From NCBI RefSeq assembly GCF_000246855.1, contig NC_016609.1:7824744-7888743 (forward strand): a stretch of 64,000 nucleotides of DNA, in the 5' to 3' direction. The DNA comes from Niastella koreensis GR20-10 (GTDB lineage: Bacteria > Bacteroidota > Bacteroidia > Chitinophagales > Chitinophagaceae). Positions 3,805 through 44,687 of the stretch are shown here, piece by piece; position 1 is the stretch's first letter; each line of letters starts with the position of its first letter. The notes beneath the pieces were generated by a model. It worked only from the letters and a program-made list of their open reading frames with translations. It was not told the DNA's origin and ran no database searches. A program made the translations under genes and the position numbers.

Positions 3805-3807
3805 CAT

Positions 3808-3821
3808 GTTCCACGTGGAAC
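3808..3821. promoter_or_regulatory. parS-like palindrome (copy 1)
   Basis: GTTCCACGTGGAAC is a perfect 14-bp palindrome, starting 4 bp after the ybeY stop codon. It matches the chromosomal ParB-binding site family (consensus of the type TGTTnCACGTGnAACA). The flanks read T..T, so 15 of 16 bases fit TGTTCCACGTGGAACA. A second identical core lies at 5973. ParB would load here for chromosome segregation; parA/parB are not in this window. Confidence 0.7.
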
Positions 3822-3864
3822 TATGTGCATCTCGTGAAATAAATAATAAGCATTTGCATATTAT

Positions 3865-5836: not shown

Positions 5837-7002
5837 TTTAAAAGTATATTAGTCAAAAAATAAGGTTACCGGGTACAAGTATAAGGGATTTAACCAGAGG
5901 ATGCAATCATGCAATTACACAAGGAGGGTATAACGGAGTTAGACAACTTCCTGATGAAAGGAAAGTGGGGTGGTTCCACGTGGAACACGTCTGTGGTGGG
6001 AGTGTTCCTTACTCTGAAAGAAGATAGATTTTAATTCCATATTGGAAGTTGATAAGGCTGACAGAGTTAATAAAGGGTAGTCAAACGAATAAAAGATCTA
6101 AGTTTTTATAGGGAATCGCTCTCTGATATTTACAGGACGCCGGTAACAACCAAAAGGGGCTTGTGATGAAATCTTGGAAACATCTCCAGAAAGGGAAAAC
6201 GGTAAAACAAATCGGAAATAACTCAGGCAGGAATCTTCCATTATAAAAAAGGTATTAATACAGTCCCAAACCTTGGGCCTGAAGAAAACACAAACTTTAA
6301 CTCCCCACTAAAAGATAACCATTACCAAATGCCAGATGCTATTCAGAATAAGACCTCGGTAAAAGCAGTGCAAAACGAAACGTAATTACCAGATAGTAAG
6401 GCAGGGTAGAAGGCTTTACCAATTGAGCAATCAAAGAGGTCTACCACCATTTGCAGAGAATAAAACAAAGCAGTTAAACTGAATCTACTATTCTATATAG
6501 TTCCCTTTAAAGTAAATCCTTCTGATAAAGACTAGACACTCCCTCCTTGAATGCCTAATCATTCACCATAAAGGTCAAGTTAATAACCCTTTAAATCGTC
6601 TTTATATCCAGCGTATACCAGGGAGGGGTCAAAAGAAGATAACCAAAACAGATAGGGTTAATCTTACTGCGCAAAAGGAAACACTCAATTACCCTGAATT
6701 TCTGTTTCATTTGATTCCGTGAAAGACAAAAACAAGCACAACCTTTACTGACCCTCAAGGCAATTAGTCTAATGAACAGTCCCTTGGAGTTCCCCACCAA
6801 ATCCGGCCATTCACTTTACCTTAAGTTCTCACTCCATACTAATACATCCTCCTATCCTTTGAAGAAATTAAACTATTCGTTACCCAAGTGTATAACAGAT
6901 ATCATATCCCAAAAATCCCATGAATCCCACCCTTCCCGGTTCAGACCTAAGCATTTTCAATTATTCATAATTATCAATCTAAACAATCCCAGTCCCCAGT
7001 TG
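5837..7002. other. 1.17-kb non-coding stretch upstream of mnmG
   Basis: No convincing ORF. I counted about 16 CpG in 960 bp (6001-6960), far fewer than in neighbouring coding DNA, and C exceeds G on the + strand (for example 21 C to 5 G at 6901-6960). It carries the second parS-like palindrome near its left end. Confidence 0.6.
5973..5986. promoter_or_regulatory. parS-like palindrome (copy 2)
   Basis: A second perfect GTTCCACGTGGAAC, 2165 bp from the first, in intergenic DNA. With its flanks (G..A) 15 of 16 bases match TGTTCCACGTGGAACA. I found no third copy in the window. Confidence 0.7.
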
Positions 7003-7014: not shown

Positions 7015-8877
7015 ATGTTTCCAGAATACGACGTAATTGTAGTAGGGGCAGGCCATGCCGGTTGTGAAGCAGCCGCTGCCGCCGCCAACCTTGGTTCAAA
7101 GGTGCTGTTAGTAACCATGAACATGCAAACCATTGCCCAAATGAGTTGCAACCCAGCTATGGGTGGTATTGCCAAAGGTCAAATTGTTAGAGAAATCGAT
7201 GCTATGGGTGGATACTCTGGTATCGTTACCGATCTAAGTATGATCCAGTTTCGCATGTTGAACCTTTCAAAAGGTCCGGCCATGTGGAGCCCGCGCGCAC
7301 AAAATGACCGCATGTTATTTGCCGCCACCTGGCGCGAAATGCTGGAGAAAACTCCTAATGTAGATTTCTATCAGGACATGGTTCGCTCCCTCATCATAAA
7401 AGATGGCCGGGCTTGCGGTGTGGTAACTGGTCTTGGCCATGAAATTCCATCGAAGTCAGTTGTTATAACCAGCGGTACATTTTTGAATGGTATCATTCAT
7501 ATTGGCGAAAAACAATTTGGCGGTGGTCGCGTAGCAGAAAAAGCTGCTACCGGTATTACCGAGCAATTGGTAGAATATGGTTTTGAAAGTGACCGACTGA
7601 AAACCGGTACGCCTCCACGTATCGATGGCCGCAGTTTGGATTATAGTAAAATGGAAGAACAGAAAGGCGACGAAAAAATGGTTGGCTTTTCTTACACTGA
7701 AACTAAAAAACCAATTGAACAACGAAGTTGCTGGATCACCTATACAAGCCAGAAAGTACATGACATTTTAAAAACTGGGTTCGACAGGAGTCCTATGTAC
7801 GCCGGAAGAATTGAGGGTGTTGGTCCAAGGTATTGCCCAAGTATAGAAGACAAGATCAATCGTTTTGCTGAAAGGGAAAGACATCAGCTTTTTGTAGAAC
7901 CCGAAGGTTGGAACACCGTCGAGATCTATGTAAATGGTTTCTCTACTTCGCTGCCTGAAGAAGTGCAGTATGCAGCGCTTCGCCAGGTTCCTGGTTTTGA
8001 AAATGTACGCATCTTCCGTCCTGGTTATGCCATCGAATACGACTACTTTCCACCAACTCAGTTGAACCATTCACTGGAAACAAAACTGATCAGTAATTTA
8101 TTCTTTGCCGGACAAATAAACGGAACTACCGGTTACGAAGAAGCCGCTTGTCAGGGACTGATGGCCGGCATTAACGCTCACCAAAAAGCAAAAGAATTAG
8201 ACCCGGTTATTTTAAAAAGAAGTGATGCTTATATCGGCGTGTTGATCGATGATCTTATCAGCAAAGGAACTGAAGAACCATATCGCATGTTCACCAGCCG
8301 CGCCGAATTCAGAACCATCCTTCGCCAGGATAATGCTGATCTTCGTCTTACCGGATTGAGTTATCAATTGGGTTTGGCTTCCCAGGAAAGAATGGACAAA
8401 GTGGCCAACAAAAGAGAAGGCGTTGAAAAAATAAAAGATATTCTTAAAGAGATCTCTCTTGATCCCAGTGAAGCCGATGGATTCCTGGCTGAAAATAATT
8501 CAGCTCCATTACCGCAGAAACAAAAAGCTACCCAGATATTGTTGCGCCCGAATGTTTCGCTGGAAGGTATGATGGCCGGCTTGCCAAAAATTAAAGAAGC
8601 GCTTACCGGCTTCACTAAGGAAATTATTGAACAAGCCGACATCCAGATCAAATACAATGTATACATCGAAAAAGAAAAAGAACTGGTAAAAAGAATGAAC
8701 CAGCTCGAAGATCTGCTGATTCCGGAAAACTTCGATTACAATAAGATCACTTCTTTATCGAATGAAGCATTACAGAAATTTAAAAAAATAAAACCGCGTA
8801 CACTGGGCCAGGCAAGCCGCATCAGTGGAGTGAATCCAAGCGATGTGCAAATACTGATGGTGTATATGGGACGGTAG
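7015..8877 (+). CDS. mnmG: tRNA uridine-5-carboxymethylaminomethyl modification enzyme MnmG (GidA)
   Basis: MnmG with MnmE installs the cmnm5 group on U34 of several tRNAs, using FAD and methylene-tetrahydrofolate. The 620-aa product has the N-terminal dinucleotide-binding motif (VIVVGAGHAGCEAAAAAANLGSKVLLVT), the conserved SCNPAMGGIAKGQIVREIDAMGG block, the GPAMWSPRAQNDR block, LKTGTPPRIDG and the second FAD-site motif FAGQINGTTGYEEAACQGL. Its C-terminal helical domain ends in the RISGVNPSDVQILMVYMGR block. Full length. gidA is a frequent neighbour of replication origins in bacteria, which fits the origin-like features on both sides here. Confidence 0.97.
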   Translation: MFPEYDVIVVGAGHAGCEAAAAAANLGSKVLLVTMNMQTIAQMSCNPAMGGIAKGQIVREIDAMGGYSGIVTDLSMIQFRMLNLSKGPAMWSPRAQNDRMLFAATWREMLEKTPNVDFYQDMVRSLIIKDGRACGVVTGLGHEIPSKSVVITSGTFLNGIIHIGEKQFGGGRVAEKAATGITEQLVEYGFESDRLKTGTPPRIDGRSLDYSKMEEQKGDEKMVGFSYTETKKPIEQRSCWITYTSQKVHDILKTGFDRSPMYAGRIEGVGPRYCPSIEDKINRFAERERHQLFVEPEGWNTVEIYVNGFSTSLPEEVQYAALRQVPGFENVRIFRPGYAIEYDYFPPTQLNHSLETKLISNLFFAGQINGTTGYEEAACQGLMAGINAHQKAKELDPVILKRSDAYIGVLIDDLISKGTEEPYRMFTSRAEFRTILRQDNADLRLTGLSYQLGLASQERMDKVANKREGVEKIKDILKEISLDPSEADGFLAENNSAPLPQKQKATQILLRPNVSLEGMMAGLPKIKEALTGFTKEIIEQADIQIKYNVYIEKEKELVKRMNQLEDLLIPENFDYNKITSLSNEALQKFKKIKPRTLGQASRISGVNPSDVQILMVYMGR

Positions 8878-10415: not shown

Positions 10416-11426
10416 TTATAAACCATATTTAGCGCTGATTTCCAGCATTCTATCAATTGGTTGCTGAGCTGCCTTGCGTAATTCCTCGTCCATGTTGATT
10501 TCCGGTGTTTCGTACTCCATGCACAGGTACAGCTTTTCCAGGGTATTCAACTTCATGTGTGGACAATCGTTGCAGGCGCAGCTGTTATTGGGTGGTGCGG
10601 GAATGAAAGTTTTATTTGGAGAAGCTTTTTGCATCTGGTGCAAAATGCCGGTTTCGGTGGCAACAATGAATTCGGTGGCGTCACTCTGCTGACTGTATTT
10701 CAGCAAACCAGTTGTGGAACCGATATAGTCGGCTATTCGCAGCACCGCCTCTTCACACTCGGGGTGGGCGATGAATTTTGCATTGGGGTGGCGGGTCTTC
10801 AGCTTAGTGATCTTTTCCAGGCTGAAAATTTCATGCACCATGCAGGCGCCATTCCACAAAACCATATCCCGGCCGGTTTTCTTCACCAGGTAGGCGCCTA
10901 GGTTTTTGTCGGGGGCGAAAATGATTGGCTGGTCTTTCGGCACACTTTCCACAATTTTCTCGGCATTGCTCGAAGTAACGATGATGTCGCTCAGCGCTTT
11001 GATCTCGGCCGAGCAATTCACATACGAAATCACGATATGATCGGGATGCTGTTCTTTGAACTTTCTGAATGGTTCGGCCGGCGCGCTGTCGGCCAGCGAA
11101 CAACCTGCATTCAGATCGGGCAGCAGTACCTTCTTGGCTGGATTTAAAATTTTCGCTGTTTCGGCCATGAAGTGAACGCCGGCAAAAACGATGATATCCG
11201 CGCTGGTTTTTTCCGCCTGCTGCGCCAAACCCAAACTATCCCCAATGTAGTCAGCCACATCCTGAATATCTGGCTCCTGGTAGTAGTGCGCGAGCAGCAC
11301 CATATTTTTTTCTTTTTTCAACCGTTCGATTTCCGAAAACAAATCGATTGTGGGGTCAATCTCGATATCGAGGAATCCTTTCTTCGGCACATTTTTTTTT
11401 GCGTTAGCTACGTGGATATCTTCCAT
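10416..11426 (-). CDS. nadA: Quinolinate synthase
   Basis: NadA condenses iminoaspartate with dihydroxyacetone phosphate to quinolinate, the first committed precursor of NAD, using an oxygen-sensitive [4Fe-4S] cluster. The 336-aa product has the family blocks [42 protein letters not shown] and [20 protein letters not shown]. The cluster ligands fit C109 (AGCSLAD), C195 (GACMVHE) and C288 within CACNDCPHM. No nadB or nadC is adjacent. Its start borders the candidate replication origin, so its promoter must lie within that AT-rich strip. Confidence 0.96.
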
Positions 11427-11996
11427 AGTATTTATATTAATTTCTTTTTTTTATAAATAACCTATTACTATTACGGCTGTGAATTAGTGGATAAAAAGCT
11501 TTTCAGGAAATTTGGTAAAGTTACAACAACCTGGTTATCCACGGTTTTCCACTTTCTCTCCACATCTAACAAATAAGGACTGGCGTAGGTTTTAGGCAGT
11601 TTTCCACCCTGGTGGATTAAAAAGGGCCTGAAGAAAATTAACGATAATAACACCCAAAAAGTCTGTTAATGGAGGTCTAATAACTTAGGGGTTTTATACA
11701 CCGCCCGGTAGGTGAAAGTATGGATCGAAACTTATTGCCCAACTATCCACCGTTTCTGACGAGCGAAAACCCGGGTTACCAACATATTTTAGAGGTTATC
11801 CAGTTTTAATGTTAGAATTGTTTTCACGACACTGTTCCACAACCTTCGCATATATTATAAAATTTGGCGTTATTCACAGCCGTGGAGATTGGTAAAACCT
11901 TTATTTGATGCTGGTTTTGAGCGGTTTTCCACAGTTTGTTCATAAACATTTTTCACCTATTTTTGCCATCCTCTATAAAAAGAGGTATACACTTTT
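11427..11996. other. oriC: Candidate replication origin: dense cluster of DnaA-box-like 9-mers
   Basis: A 570-bp gene-free region between the diverging nadA and ppiD genes. Forward-strand hits near TTATCCACA: TTATCCACG 11535, TTTTCCACT 11545, TTTTCCACC 11600, CTATCCACC 11743, TTATCCAGT 11796, TGTTCCACA 11833, TTATTCACA 11870, TTTTCCACA 11925, TTTTTCACC 11949. Reverse-strand hits: TAATTCACA (11478-11486), TTATCCACT (11486-11494), TAATCCACC (11611-11619). Two match TTWTNCACA exactly (11870 and 11925). An AT-rich strip (11428-11475) at the nadA end could serve as the unwinding element. Two parS-like sites lie 5.5-8 kb away. The origin call is inference; dnaA itself is not in the window. Confidence 0.6.
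11935..11965 (+). promoter_or_regulatory. Bacteroidota promoter of the ppiD-like gene, adjoining a DnaA box
   Basis: TTTG (11935-11938) and TATTTTTG (11958-11965) are separated by 19 bp, matching the Bacteroidota consensus TTTG-N19-TAnnTTTG. The DnaA-box-like TTTTCCACA at 11925-11933 ends one base before the -33 element, so DnaA could influence this promoter. Confidence 0.65.
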
Positions 11997-14147
11997 ATGT
12001 CAGTTATTCAATCTATCCGCGACAAAGCAGCGTGGATTATCATTGGTGCGATTGCATTGGCCCTTATCGCCTTTATTGTACAGGATGCCCTTCAGGGAGG
12101 TGGCCGTGGTTTGTTCAGCGGTAATTCAACTACGCTGGGTAAAGTCAATGGTACCAGTATCGATCTGCGCGATTTTGAGGCACGTTACAAAATGGCCGAA
12201 GATAACTACCGCAATCAGAATTACCCCGTGAATGATCAATTGCGTAGTCAGATCCGTGAGAGTCTGTGGAACGAGTACGTAGAGGACGCGTTAATGACAG
12301 ATGAATATGCCAAGCTCGGCATCACTATATCTGACAAAGAAGTGGGTGATATACTATATGGTGATAACCCACCCCAAATGTTAAAACAACAGTTTACCGA
12401 TTCAACCGGTAGATTCAATGCAGCGGCTGCTTACCAGGCCATTCGTTCACTGAAAAAAGGTACACCTCAATACAACAGCTTCTGGGGTGAGTTTGTACCC
12501 GCCCTGGAAAAAAGCCGTCAGCGTGAAAAATTCACTGCGCTGGTTGGAAAAAGTATGTACGTTCCAAAATGGTTGCTGGAGAAAACCAATGCCGAGAACA
12601 GCCAACGTGCTGCGATTTCATATGTGAACGTTCCATATTCTTCTATTCCTGATTCCAGCATCACCGTATCAAACGAAGATGTGCAGGATTATATAAATAA
12701 ACATAAAGACGCATATCAACAGGAAAATGGACGTACCCTGATTTATGTTTCTTTTGATGCATCTCCAACCTCTGCGGATAGCGCAAAAATAAAAGATGAC
12801 ATAGCCAAACAAAAAGATGCTTTGGCCGCTGCCAACACTACTGCTGAAATTCAAACCGTAATGGCTAACAGCGGCAGCGAAACGCCCTATTTTGATGGCT
12901 ATGTACTGAGCAGCCATATGCAAATGGGCAATGCCGATACTTTGCGTAAACTGGCCGATGGCCAGATCATCGGGCCTTACCAGGATGGTCCGAATTTTAC
13001 CATGGCTAAAATGATTGGCCGTCGCCAAATGCCCGATAGCGTAAAATGCCGTCACATCTTAATTAAAATAGGTGATCAGCAGGGTCAGGCAAGAACCGAT
13101 AGTGCTGCTAAAAAATTGATCGATAGTATCCAGGCCGCAATTGCAGGTGGCGCCAGCTTCGACAGCATGGTGGCTAAATATAGCGACGATGGTGGCAGCA
13201 AGGAAAAACGTGGTGATCTTAACCCCGGCGAATACGAATTTAATTCACTGCAGTTCTCTAACCTGAGCAAGGAATTTGCTGAGGTGATCTTCTATGGTAC
13301 CCCCGGCGAAAAGAAAGTAGTAAAAGTTGAGAACCAGTCTTACAGCGGTTACCATTATATAGAAGTACTGAGCCAGAAGAAAGTGGAAACAGCTTTCAAA
13401 ATTGCTTATATCTCACACGCCATTGTTCCAACTGATGAAACAATCAACACCGCCAGTGGCAGGGCATCGCAGTTTGCTGCTGCCAGCCGCGACACCAAGC
13501 AGTTTGATGAAAATGCTACCAAAGAAAAACTGAATAAATTACAGGCCGATGTGAAAGAATCTGATTTCATGATCATGGGTCTGGGTGAGTCACGCGAAAT
13601 TATTCGCTGGGCTTTCAATGATGCTAAAAGAGGATCTGTTGCTGAGCACGCTTACCAGGTAGGTGATAAATTTGTAGTACCTGCAGTTGCCGGCGTTTCT
13701 GAAAAAGGAACCATGTCTGTTGAAAAAGCCCGTCCATTGGTTGAATACAAAGTTCGCAATGAGAAAAAGGCCGACAACATTGTAAAGAAAATCGGCAGTG
13801 CTTCAACACTCGAAGCAGTAGCACAGGCTACCGGTCAACAGGTATTTAACAATGACAGTATTTCTTTCGGCAGCACCTTTATTCCAAATGTGGGTAACGA
13901 ATTGAAAGTACTGGGCGCTTCTTTCAACAAAGACTACCAGTCAAAAATTTCTGGTCCAATCAAAGGTGAAATTGGCGTTTTTGTTATCAAGGTTAATAAC
14001 ATCAGTGCGGTACCTAATCCAAACTTTGATGTGAAAGCACAACAACAGGCCATTCAACAACAAATGGGTTCTATGTTTGGCTACCGGGTTATGGAAATTA
14101 TGAAAAAATCTGCAGACATAAAAGATAATAGAATTAAGTTCTTCTAG
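11997..14147 (+). CDS. Membrane-anchored peptidyl-prolyl isomerase (SurA/PpiD type)
   Basis: 716 aa. One N-terminal membrane helix (WIIIGAIALALIAFIVQDAL, residues 13-32) anchors the protein, with the remainder in the periplasm. A SurA-type N-terminal chaperone domain follows (LGKVNGTSIDLRDFEARYKMAEDNYRNQ). A parvulin domain sits at about residues 345-465 (VKCRHILIKIGD, SFDSMVAKYSDDGGSKEKRGDLNPGEY, GYHYIEVL). The C-terminal third has a weaker second module. This is the PpiD layout: assistance of outer-membrane and periplasmic protein folding. It has its own promoter at 11935 and a very strong terminator at 14168, so it is a single-gene unit. Confidence 0.9.
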   Translation: MSVIQSIRDKAAWIIIGAIALALIAFIVQDALQGGGRGLFSGNSTTLGKVNGTSIDLRDFEARYKMAEDNYRNQNYPVNDQLRSQIRESLWNEYVEDALMTDEYAKLGITISDKEVGDILYGDNPPQMLKQQFTDSTGRFNAAAAYQAIRSLKKGTPQYNSFWGEFVPALEKSRQREKFTALVGKSMYVPKWLLEKTNAENSQRAAISYVNVPYSSIPDSSITVSNEDVQDYINKHKDAYQQENGRTLIYVSFDASPTSADSAKIKDDIAKQKDALAAANTTAEIQTVMANSGSETPYFDGYVLSSHMQMGNADTLRKLADGQIIGPYQDGPNFTMAKMIGRRQMPDSVKCRHILIKIGDQQGQARTDSAAKKLIDSIQAAIAGGASFDSMVAKYSDDGGSKEKRGDLNPGEYEFNSLQFSNLSKEFAEVIFYGTPGEKKVVKVENQSYSGYHYIEVLSQKKVETAFKIAYISHAIVPTDETINTASGRASQFAAASRDTKQFDENATKEKLNKLQADVKESDFMIMGLGESREIIRWAFNDAKRGSVAEHAYQVGDKFVVPAVAGVSEKGTMSVEKARPLVEYKVRNEKKADNIVKKIGSASTLEAVAQATGQQVFNNDSISFGSTFIPNVGNELKVLGASFNKDYQSKISGPIKGEIGVFVIKVNNISAVPNPNFDVKAQQQAIQQQMGSMFGYRVMEIMKKSADIKDNRIKFF

Positions 14148-42743: not shown

Positions 42744-44687
42744 TTATTGCGCTTTCCATATATTATTCTGGCGGTTGGCATCGGGTAGCATCTGGTCCGG
42801 ATCGATGGTAACCGTTGTAATGGCTTCCGGAACCGGAACTGATAATGTATAGGTAGTGTGCTGGAACCAGGTTTCAACCGGCAATTGCAGCCGTTGCGTA
42901 GTACCATTACTGAAAGTTAGTTGAATAACAACCGGCATCACCATTTTATTAAAATTGGCAATAGTGATTGTAGCCATGTTACCGGCTAGGCTTACCTGCT
43001 GTACCGCCTGGTCGAGTGGCCAGTTGTTGATAAACCATTCCCGCCAGAACCAGGTGAGGTCTTCGCCACTTTCATTATCCATAGTGTGGAAAAAGTCCTC
43101 AGGCGATGGATGTTTGAATGCCCAGTTGTGGATATAGCGTTTAAAAGCATAGTCGAACCTGTCTTTTCCGAGAATATATTCCCGCAACAGGTGCAACCCA
43201 AAGGCAGGTTTGAAATAAGAAATGGGATGGCGCCAGGTTTCCGGAATGGCATCTGCCGCCAGCATCATGGAAGGCGCTTTGGGATCGTTTAAATAGGGTA
43301 ATATTTCATCGGCCGGATTGCCGCCGCCAGGTGCATATTCACTGTCGCGCTTAGGTGCATATTCGCCCTTATTGAAAACATCCGATGCATACAGGTCGAT
43401 AAAAGTATTAAAGCCTTCATCCATCCAGGCATGGCTGCGTTCGTTTGACCCAACGATCATCGGGAACCAGTTGTGGCCTATTTCATGGGCGGTAACCCAG
43501 TATAATTCTTTCCCTTTATCATTTATGCCATCGAACAAAATACCTGGGTATTCCATCCCACCTGCAATACCGGCTTCATTGATAGCCGTAGGGTAGGGAT
43601 ACACGAACCAGGTTTCAGAAAAATGTTCAATAGAAGCTTTCAGGTATTCTGTTGACCGGCCCCAGGCTTCGTTGCCTTCGCTTTCAACCGGGTATACCGA
43701 CATGGCCATGCATTTTTTGCCATTGGGTAAATTAACCCTTGCGGCATCCCACATAAAAGCAGCAGAAGCGCCAAAAGCCACATCGCGGGTATTGTTCATT
43801 TTAAACCGCCAGGTCAGGTTGCCCTTTTGCACCGGCCGGCTGTGCGGATCGGTAATTTCTGCGGCAGACCTGATGATAATTGTTTTATCGCTGTTGCGGG
43901 CTGCAGCCAATCGTTCAATTTGTTTTGGCGTAAGTACTTCTGCAGGGTTTTGTAATTCACCCGCGCCTGCTACTATTATATTCCAGGGAACTGTTATGCT
44001 GTAATCGAAATTGCCGTACTCGCAATAAAACTCACCACTGCCTAAAAAGGGCAAAGTGTTCCAACCGACCAGGTCGTCATACACGCACATCCGCGGATAC
44101 CATTGCGCAATTTCGTAAATGGTGCCATTTTTTGTTTTTACATAATCGGTGCGGCCCCCAAATGCGCCGGGAATGGTGTAATGGTATTTTATCCGGATGG
44201 TGATAGTGCCGGTTTTTGCCGGCAGGGCTTTGCTCAACCTGATCTGCATACGCGTATCAGTAACTATATAATTGGCAGTAGTAATTTTAGCGTCCTGCTG
44301 AATTTGCGCTTCGTCAATGGAATACCCGGTTGTAAACTCCTGCGGTTGCTGATCGGTTAAATAATTACTGCGTGCACCTTTTTGATAGGTATTCTGATCG
44401 AGTTGCAACCATAAGGATGATAAGGAATCAGGGCTGTTATTGGTATAGCGGATAACCGCATATCCCGTCAGTTGCTGTTTTACCGTATCAATGGTAGCCT
44501 GCAGGGTATAATCGGCCCGGTTTTGCCAGTAAGCCTGGCAGGGTGCGCCATTGGCCGACCGGATGGTACTGCTTTTATTGGTATAAAATCCCGGTGCAAA
44601 TGTTTCTGCCGGATCGTATAACGGTTTGGATTGTGCAAAACCTGTGATTGATAAACCTAATGTGACTAACAATAATAAATGGCGCAT
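42744..44687 (-). CDS. Exported M1-family metallopeptidase
   Basis: 647 aa with a signal peptide ([19 protein letters not shown]). The M1 pattern is complete: the exopeptidase motif GGMEYPG (377-383), the zinc site H401-E-I-G-H405 and the third ligand E424 ([10 protein letters not shown]). The N-terminal beta domain (about 60-240) and the C-terminal beta-sandwich (from about 575) are also visible. An aminopeptidase of the leukotriene-A4-hydrolase/aminopeptidase N clan, acting in the periplasm or at the surface. Upstream on the same strand is PBP1A, separated by a strong terminator. Confidence 0.94.

Follow-up and report, generated by a model that had tools for sequence, protein, structure and literature searches.

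The chromosomal replication origins of Bacteroidetes commonly lie far from dnaA, as stated in PMC4755523 with reference to DoriC, and a limited literature search turned up no experimental work on an origin of Bacteroidota. The rule of the basal unwinding system (BUS) places a DnaA box near an array of 3-base repeats with a central A (PMC8287927); in Bacillus subtilis these repeats read 5'-TAG/TAA/AAG on the corresponding strand (PMC10316083), and in Helicobacter pylori the other strand reads 5'-CTA (PMC8235120). Here we describe a predicted DnaA-dependent chromosomal origin (oriC) of Niastella, located in the gap between the genes nadA and ppiD of Niastella koreensis GR20-10, a soil bacterium of the family Chitinophagaceae. 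The gap lies in a 64,000-nt window (the whole stretch of DNA that was analysed), which corresponds to positions 7,824,744–7,888,743 of the single 9,033,684-bp contig. All positions are window coordinates unless prefixed C1, which denotes the contig. An earlier reading made from the DNA letters alone (the sequence-only reading) had proposed an origin in a 570-bp gap between two diverging genes, and domain matches confirmed that this gap is real, with nadA on the minus and ppiD on the plus strand:

11427–11996, no strand: proposed oriC in the intergenic region of the divergent genes nadA and ppiD (skew breakpoint, top loose DnaA-box cluster, genus and family conservation)
10416–11426, minus strand: nadA, quinolinate synthase (PF02445, E 5.5e-127), the flanking gene with which the element mostly stays
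11997–14147, plus strand: ppiD-type peptidyl-prolyl isomerase (PF13623, SurA_N_2, plus rotamase domains), the usual but not constant right neighbour

This gap is very probably the chromosomal origin of Niastella, a degree of confidence that applies to the location of the origin only. The proposal made in the sequence-only reading is supported by (i) a switch in GC skew, (ii) enrichment of DnaA boxes, (iii) nearby parS-like sites and (iv) conservation within the family.

GC skew was determined for forty 20-kb samples distributed over the contig, more densely near the terminus, and for a contiguous 464-kb region around the window. The skew of the samples was mostly positive from ~7.8 Mb via the contig end to ~3.2 Mb and mostly negative elsewhere. 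With the origin placed at the nadA-ppiD gap and the terminus opposite, the expected sign was observed in 36 of the 40 samples (the four misfits start at 1.575, 2.925, 3.26 and 6.75 Mb). The best free fit located the origin at 7.66–8.11 Mb and the terminus at 3.16–3.27 Mb, near the antipode of the gap (3.32 Mb). Within the 464-kb region the cumulative skew reached its minimum at 10,539, and a one-breakpoint fit placed the change from minus to plus at 12,001 (bootstrap 5–95% interval: -9,999 to 21,001), with a score that was reached by none of 5000 permutations of 10-kb blocks. The hand-counted skew of the sequence-only reading, which had been mixed and left the matter undecided, is superseded by this switch, which falls at the gap over 464 kb; the cumulative-skew analysis that it had suggested as a check thus came out in favour of its proposal, with the minimum and breakpoint given above.

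The DnaA-box consensus was taken as the starting point, along with the E. coli R1 convention. The individual boxes of the gap are listed below, with mismatches counted against TTATCCACA and conservation expressed as the number of 10 genus genomes in which the box is kept within 2 mismatches:

11478–11486, minus strand: DnaA box TAATTCACA, repeat-proximal box of a tandem pair; 2 mismatches, 7/10
11486–11494, minus strand: DnaA box TTATCCACT, better-matching box of the tandem pair; 1 mismatch, 10/10
11535–11543, plus strand: DnaA box TTATCCACG; 1 mismatch, 10/10
11545–11553, plus strand: DnaA box TTTTCCACT, close behind the box at 11535; 2 mismatches, 10/10
11600–11608, plus strand: DnaA box TTTTCCACC; 2 mismatches, 10/10
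11743–11751, plus strand: DnaA box CTATCCACC; 2 mismatches, 10/10
11776–11784, plus strand: weak DnaA box TTACCAACA; 2 mismatches, 10/10
11870–11878, plus strand: DnaA box TTATTCACA, exact TTWTNCACA; 1 mismatch, 9/10
11925–11933, plus strand: DnaA box TTTTCCACA, exact TTWTNCACA; 1 mismatch, 10/10
11937–11945, minus strand: weak DnaA box TTATGAACA; 2 mismatches, 10/10

Altogether the gap holds 15 loose boxes, eight of which are kept in 10/10 genus genomes, one in 9/10 and six in 3–7/10. Counted against TTWTNCACA, it contains 12 nine-mers with at most one mismatch (9 on the plus and 3 on the minus strand), and two of these, at 11870 and 11925, are exact; the sequence-only reading had arrived at the same figures (about twelve near-box 9-mers on both strands, two exact). 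As a background we used 1.244 Mb of the same chromosome, composed of the contiguous 464 kb and 39 separate 20-kb samples (the overlapping sample L019 was dropped). Under four loose box definitions the gap ranked first in this background: (i) TTATCCACA with at most 2 mismatches, 15 in the gap and 16 in the 570 bp from 11478 (mean 2.0, next-best site 10); (ii) TTWTNCACA with at most 1 mismatch, 12 (mean 1.44, next site 8); (iii) exact TTWTNCAC, 8 (mean 0.23, next site 4); and (iv) exact TTWTCCAC, 5 (mean 0.05, next site 4). The comparison of box density with the chromosome, also suggested in the earlier reading, was therefore positive for loose definitions.

Two parS-like sites and mnmG, which the sequence-only reading had placed 5.5–8 kb from the gap and close by, respectively, were found as follows:

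3808–3821, no strand: parS-like palindrome GTTCCACGTGGAAC, perfect palindromic match of GTTNCACGTGNAAC, 7.6 kb from the gap
5973–5986, no strand: parS-like palindrome GTTCCACGTGGAAC, perfect palindromic match of GTTNCACGTGNAAC, 5.4 kb from the gap
7015–8877, plus strand: mnmG (gidA; PF01134, E 7.8e-164)

The two sites as a whole span 3807–3822 and 5972–5987. The pattern GTTNCACGTGNAAC, behind which stands the parS consensus, was found three times in 9.03 Mb; only the two listed are perfect palindromes, both less than 8 kb from the gap, and the backwards control of the pattern gave one match per strand in the genome. The third, imperfect site (C1:2520860–2520873) lies away from the origin as well as from the predicted terminus.

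The same data bear on an origin at dnaA, i.e. at contig position ~1. The dnaA gene usually serves to indicate oriC (PMC10225481), and the contig begins just ahead of it: the sole Bac_DnaA match of the genome is located at C1:555, 1.2 Mb from the gap. However, with the origin at dnaA the expected skew sign was observed in only 26 of the 40 samples, the 2.1 kb around the dnaA start contain 4 loose boxes, and the three parS-like places all lie away from this gene. Moreover, in three closed relatives (G112, G086 and G058) dnaA is 0.74, 1.43 and 3.0 Mb away from the nadA-ppiD gap, respectively. An origin at dnaA was rejected on skew, box count and parS-like sites, and its probability may be considered negligible. 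The remark in the sequence-only reading that Bacteroidota origins are often away from dnaA corresponds to what PMC4755523 states for Bacteroidetes, and here the distance is 1.2 Mb.

The nadA end of the gap contains a module of the unwinding type, composed, together with the tandem boxes listed above, of the following parts:

11475–11477, no strand: short G+C spacer between boxes and repeats (61 aligned gaps: G in 77%, C in 70% and C in 79%)
11462–11474, minus strand: trio-like 3-base repeat array, minus-strand TAATAGTAATAG (11473–11462), plus-strand 5'-TAT TAC TAT TAC (11463–11474)
11427–11462, no strand: A+T-rich strip beside nadA, proposed melting region (DNA unwinding element, DUE), largely invariant in 10 aligned genus genomes

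Read on the minus strand toward nadA, the order is TTATCCACTAATTCACA (two boxes with one base shared), GCCG, TAATAGTAATAG and then A+T-rich DNA. The A+T content amounts to 93% in 11427–11456, and the richest 40-mers (90%) begin at 11430–11434; the A+T-rich strip that the sequence-only reading had noticed at one end of the gap is thus located at the nadA end. The distance from the better box of the tandem pair to the repeat array is 11 nt, and a DnaA box lies within 16 bp of at least three central-A 3-base repeats, as the BUS rule describes.

Analysis of the ppiD loci revealed that this arrangement is conserved. Within the genus, ppiD is present in 10/10 genomes searched and the upstream 570 bp align at 82% mean column identity; judged by ppiD, Niastella and Longitalea are the closest named relatives. 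In the family, nadA is found upstream of ppiD in 25 of 28 other loci examined (two of the remaining three have short upstream DNA). Among 80 named family ppiD loci, 75 have at least 700 bp upstream, and 68 of these carry a divergent nadA, with gaps of 487–997 bp that contain 7.6–28.8 loose boxes per kb; downstream of ppiD (loci with more than 1 kb) the density is 1.4–7.1 per kb. Three of the seven named loci lacking nadA keep 11–12 boxes in 700 bp.

In 63 of the 68 named family gaps, the 170 bp nearest nadA contain a TA[AG] array of at least three repeats; in L198, L208, L218 and L219 the array has one base changed, and L160 is devoid of it. Such an array with a same-strand box within 16 bp was identified in 58/68 gaps (shuffles: mean 0.3, max 2). 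A permissive form of the BUS rule (any bases around the central A, four repeats) is satisfied by 66/68 gaps in both orientations and discriminates poorly, since ~20/68 shuffles also satisfy it. Repeats of the usual polarity (three [CT]TA on the box strand) were found beside a box in 0/68 family gaps (shuffles 0.2), and the canonical consensus, 3'-GAT-5' (5'-TAG) on the 5'-tail strand, is absent here. Classification of the array as a canonical Bacillus-type trio was dropped on the strand statements given in PMC8287927, PMC8235120, PMC7561715 and PMC10316083.

Whole genomes were also searched with the pattern MACANNNN(TAR)4, which gave 121 matches, distributed over 86 of the 117 family genomes; since the reversed control has ~72, some 65 of the 121 matches are background. 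The four-repeat pattern is located 374–1025 bp upstream of ppiD in 56/117 family genomes, on the opposite strand in 56/56 cases, with an expected count of ~0.03 by a crude uniform estimate. Of the other 61 genomes, 18 were chosen, namely those in which the match stood elsewhere but in a suggestive setting, and G105, which had none. In 17 of these 18, the 300 bp upstream of nadA contain an array of three or more repeats, accompanied by 9–16 boxes per 500 bp. In the 18 chosen genomes the element therefore goes with nadA, and ppiD is the neighbour that can move. In one of these genomes, G100, a pattern match was recorded on the ppiD contig, at C17:3093. The second match of the repeat pattern in N. 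koreensis (C1:7780940–7780959) was regarded as chance: it is placed inside a 953-residue frame resembling, by eye, DNA polymerase I, and the region around C1:7,780,940 has no more than 4 loose boxes per 500 bp.

Outside the family, where 115 genomes had a match, nadA was located at ppiD in none of the 26 loci examined, and these loci contain 1–9 boxes per 500 bp; the ppiD neighbourhood was rejected as an origin in other families of the class, given 26/26 loci without nadA. The CACA form of the pattern, present in 8 of the 115 genomes (0/8 loci with nadA), was also discarded, since the reversed control has ~15 matches in the same genomes, which places the observed matches at chance level.

Skew was also tested in four relatives, G112, G105, G058 and G086. 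Agreement with an origin at nadA-ppiD was observed in 9/9 samples of G112, in 6/8 of G105 (short 5-kb samples) and in 7/11 of G058, whose best free fit (9/11) includes the gap, with an adjacent placement scoring almost equally. In G086 the module is intact, at position 6,042,233 of that genome's own contig C1, and its box cluster ranks first in the local 200 kb.

Several observations weigh against the gap as the origin. The skew resolves the origin only to ~15–20 kb, because the bootstrap interval extends from -9,999 to 21,001, and four other local minima of the cumulative skew (20,935; 13,542; 27,520; 6,997) are at most 40 units from the lowest one. In the closed relative G086 only 9/20 samples agree, the local cumulative skew shows a maximum rather than a dip near nadA-ppiD, and the best free fit (only 14/20) puts a terminus-type switch at the gap; heavy inversion, misassembly or a different origin are possible causes. 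Under strict box definitions the gap does not stand out: exact TTWTNCACA occurs twice in the gap vs three times at window coordinate 68,447; TTATCCACA with at most 1 mismatch gives a tie, with 4 in the gap and 4 at two other places; and exact TTTTCCAC also ties, with 3 at two places including the gap. In the family, four of the seven named ppiD loci without nadA have just 2–4 boxes in 700 bp, 31 of the 117 genomes lack the exact four-repeat pattern, and in G100 nadA is accompanied by neither a box cluster nor repeats. Exact TTWTNCACA was dropped as origin evidence altogether, being undiscriminating in the gap, in the window (12 vs 8.8 expected) and in the whole genome (745 vs 697 for the reversed control), with no enrichment in the latter two.

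Within the interval left by the skew, the gap was chosen because the DnaA boxes and the unwinding-type module are located there. DnaA-box clusters can also be regulatory, and a datA-like locus is a box cluster situated away from the skew switch and without an unwinding module. The gap could accordingly be a DnaA-titration (datA-like) cluster or a DnaA-controlled nadA/ppiD promoter, the true origin being somewhere between a few and 20 kb from it. The wide skew interval is compatible with this explanation, as are two further small box clusters, each with 4 boxes per 570 bp at no more than one mismatch: one at 43025–43135, inside an open reading frame (42744–44687), and the other at window coordinate 68036–68450 (C1 ~7.893 Mb, outside the window). 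These two clusters are possible titration or regulatory sites themselves. The gap, however, lies at the skew switch and contains a module, it outranks the other loose-box sites within the surrounding 464 kb, and the order of tandem boxes, G+C spacer, 3-base repeats and A+T strip is kept across the family. In addition, in 17 of the 18 chosen genomes the element is found at nadA where it is absent at ppiD; hence the conserved feature is not a shared promoter. We consider a titration or regulatory cluster very unlikely and an origin in the nadA-ppiD gap the preferred explanation.

Given an origin in the gap, a sequence of events can be proposed. It starts from computed features (the position at which the skew switches, the enrichment of boxes, the parS-like sites, module conservation and DnaA residue changes); the binding of DnaA and of ParB, the melting, the choice of strand and the loading of the helicase are adopted from other bacteria. 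DnaA, expressed from a gene 1.2 Mb away, would bind the boxes at 11478–11945, and a DnaA oligomer would extend from the outward-facing tandem pair (11494–11478) past the G+C spacer to reach the repeats (11463–11474) on their plus strand. Capture of the repeats would result in opening of the A+T-rich strip (11427–11462), where the helicase would be loaded and from which two forks would leave. Segregation of the new origins would be the task of ParB, bound at the two parS-like sites (3.8 and 6.0 kb). Outward capture with the plus strand as the captured one (5'-TAY-3', Y being a pyrimidine) is favoured because the tandem pair points outward at a spacing that matches the published one and because no good box was seen on the nadA side in the genus alignment; we put it forward tentatively, its chances being slightly short of even.

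The minus-strand array is a textbook TAA-TAG-TAA-TAG, which would suit the opposite polarity: canonical 5'-TAG/TAA trios along which DnaA would extend on the minus strand in the direction of the boxes, with other boxes or looping, and not the tandem pair, providing the seed. However, inspection of the genus alignment by eye revealed no good DnaA box on the side of the array that faces nadA, the 11-nt distance from the better box fits outward loading (published peak 10–13; PMC8287927), and flipping of box 6 or boxes 6/7 inactivates B. subtilis incC (PMC6669920). Reversed polarity thus appears rather unlikely.

Outward capture can be related to the residues by which DnaA reads single-stranded DNA. 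In the B. subtilis DnaA structure, Asn187 contacts adenine, while Arg202 and Glu228 contact guanine (PMC10721633). Alignment of 14 family DnaA proteins showed that Asn187 is kept in 14/14, with Arg202 replaced by Ile and Glu228 by Ala; of the canonical BUS residue set only Asn187 is retained. Arg202 and Glu228 are likewise missing from all eight DnaA proteins sampled in other families of the class, and six of these proteins are without Asn187 as well. The match between residue replacement and variant repeat is suggestive only, since according to PMC10721633 none of the three residues is universally conserved. On this basis the origins of the family may open by a changed trio code, in which DnaA extends on 5'-TAY-3', with a pyrimidine at position 3 in place of the Bacillus purine; we regard this as possible, at a little less than an even chance. 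Loss of Arg202 and Glu228 would have made the reading of TAY possible. The altered code could be wider than the family, since the DnaA proteins of the eight other families sampled lack both residues; these proteins may in turn read the repeats differently, because six of the eight are without the Asn187 kept in Chitinophagaceae. Two other positions were recorded in the same alignment: DnaA of N. koreensis (G000; L002:99–1577) and of 13 family relatives has Ser at the equivalent of Ile193 and Ala at that of Lys222 (14/14), whereas in the eight DnaA of other class families Lys222 is kept and none has Ser at 193.

The window gave no match to Rfam families, and a beta-lactamase-like reading frame (PF13354), an ordinary family match, is located at 1048–2001, ~9 kb from the proposed origin. 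The conserved, nadA-linked origin would provide a sequence anchor for the placement of oriC in Chitinophagaceae assemblies, of use for rotating records and for coverage-based estimates of growth rate.

Compared with known systems, the proposed origin shares multiple DnaA boxes and a skew switch far from dnaA with the predicted oriC of Prevotella intermedia OMA14 and other Bacteroidetes origins of DoriC (PMC4755523). It differs from the predicted oriC of P. intermedia OMA14 in its defined flanking genes and unwinding module, neither of which is named for that strain in the portions of PMC4755523 drawn on here. With E. coli oriC it has in common a location away from dnaA, and the T-rich 3-base pattern on the strand to be captured is reminiscent of the single-stranded TTATT motif of the E. 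coli DUE (PMC10316083), which is a resemblance only; in contrast to E. coli, Niastella has a regular 3-base array in a fixed position beside a tandem box pair, in the nadA/ppiD context. The BUS of B. subtilis is similar in architecture, with tandem boxes of which the better one is farther from the repeats, a short G+C spacer, 3-base repeats and A+T-rich DNA, and the 11-nt spacing falls within the published peak of 10–13 (PMC8287927). However, the Niastella repeats read 5'-TAT/TAC where those of B. subtilis read 5'-TAG/TAA/AAG (PMC10316083), DnaA has Ile and Ala at Arg202 and Glu228, and dnaA is 1.2 Mb from the origin. The variant repeat and the changed residues of the DnaA pocket would offer a stringent way to test the reading of single-stranded DNA by DnaA: the same architecture, with different bases and different residues.
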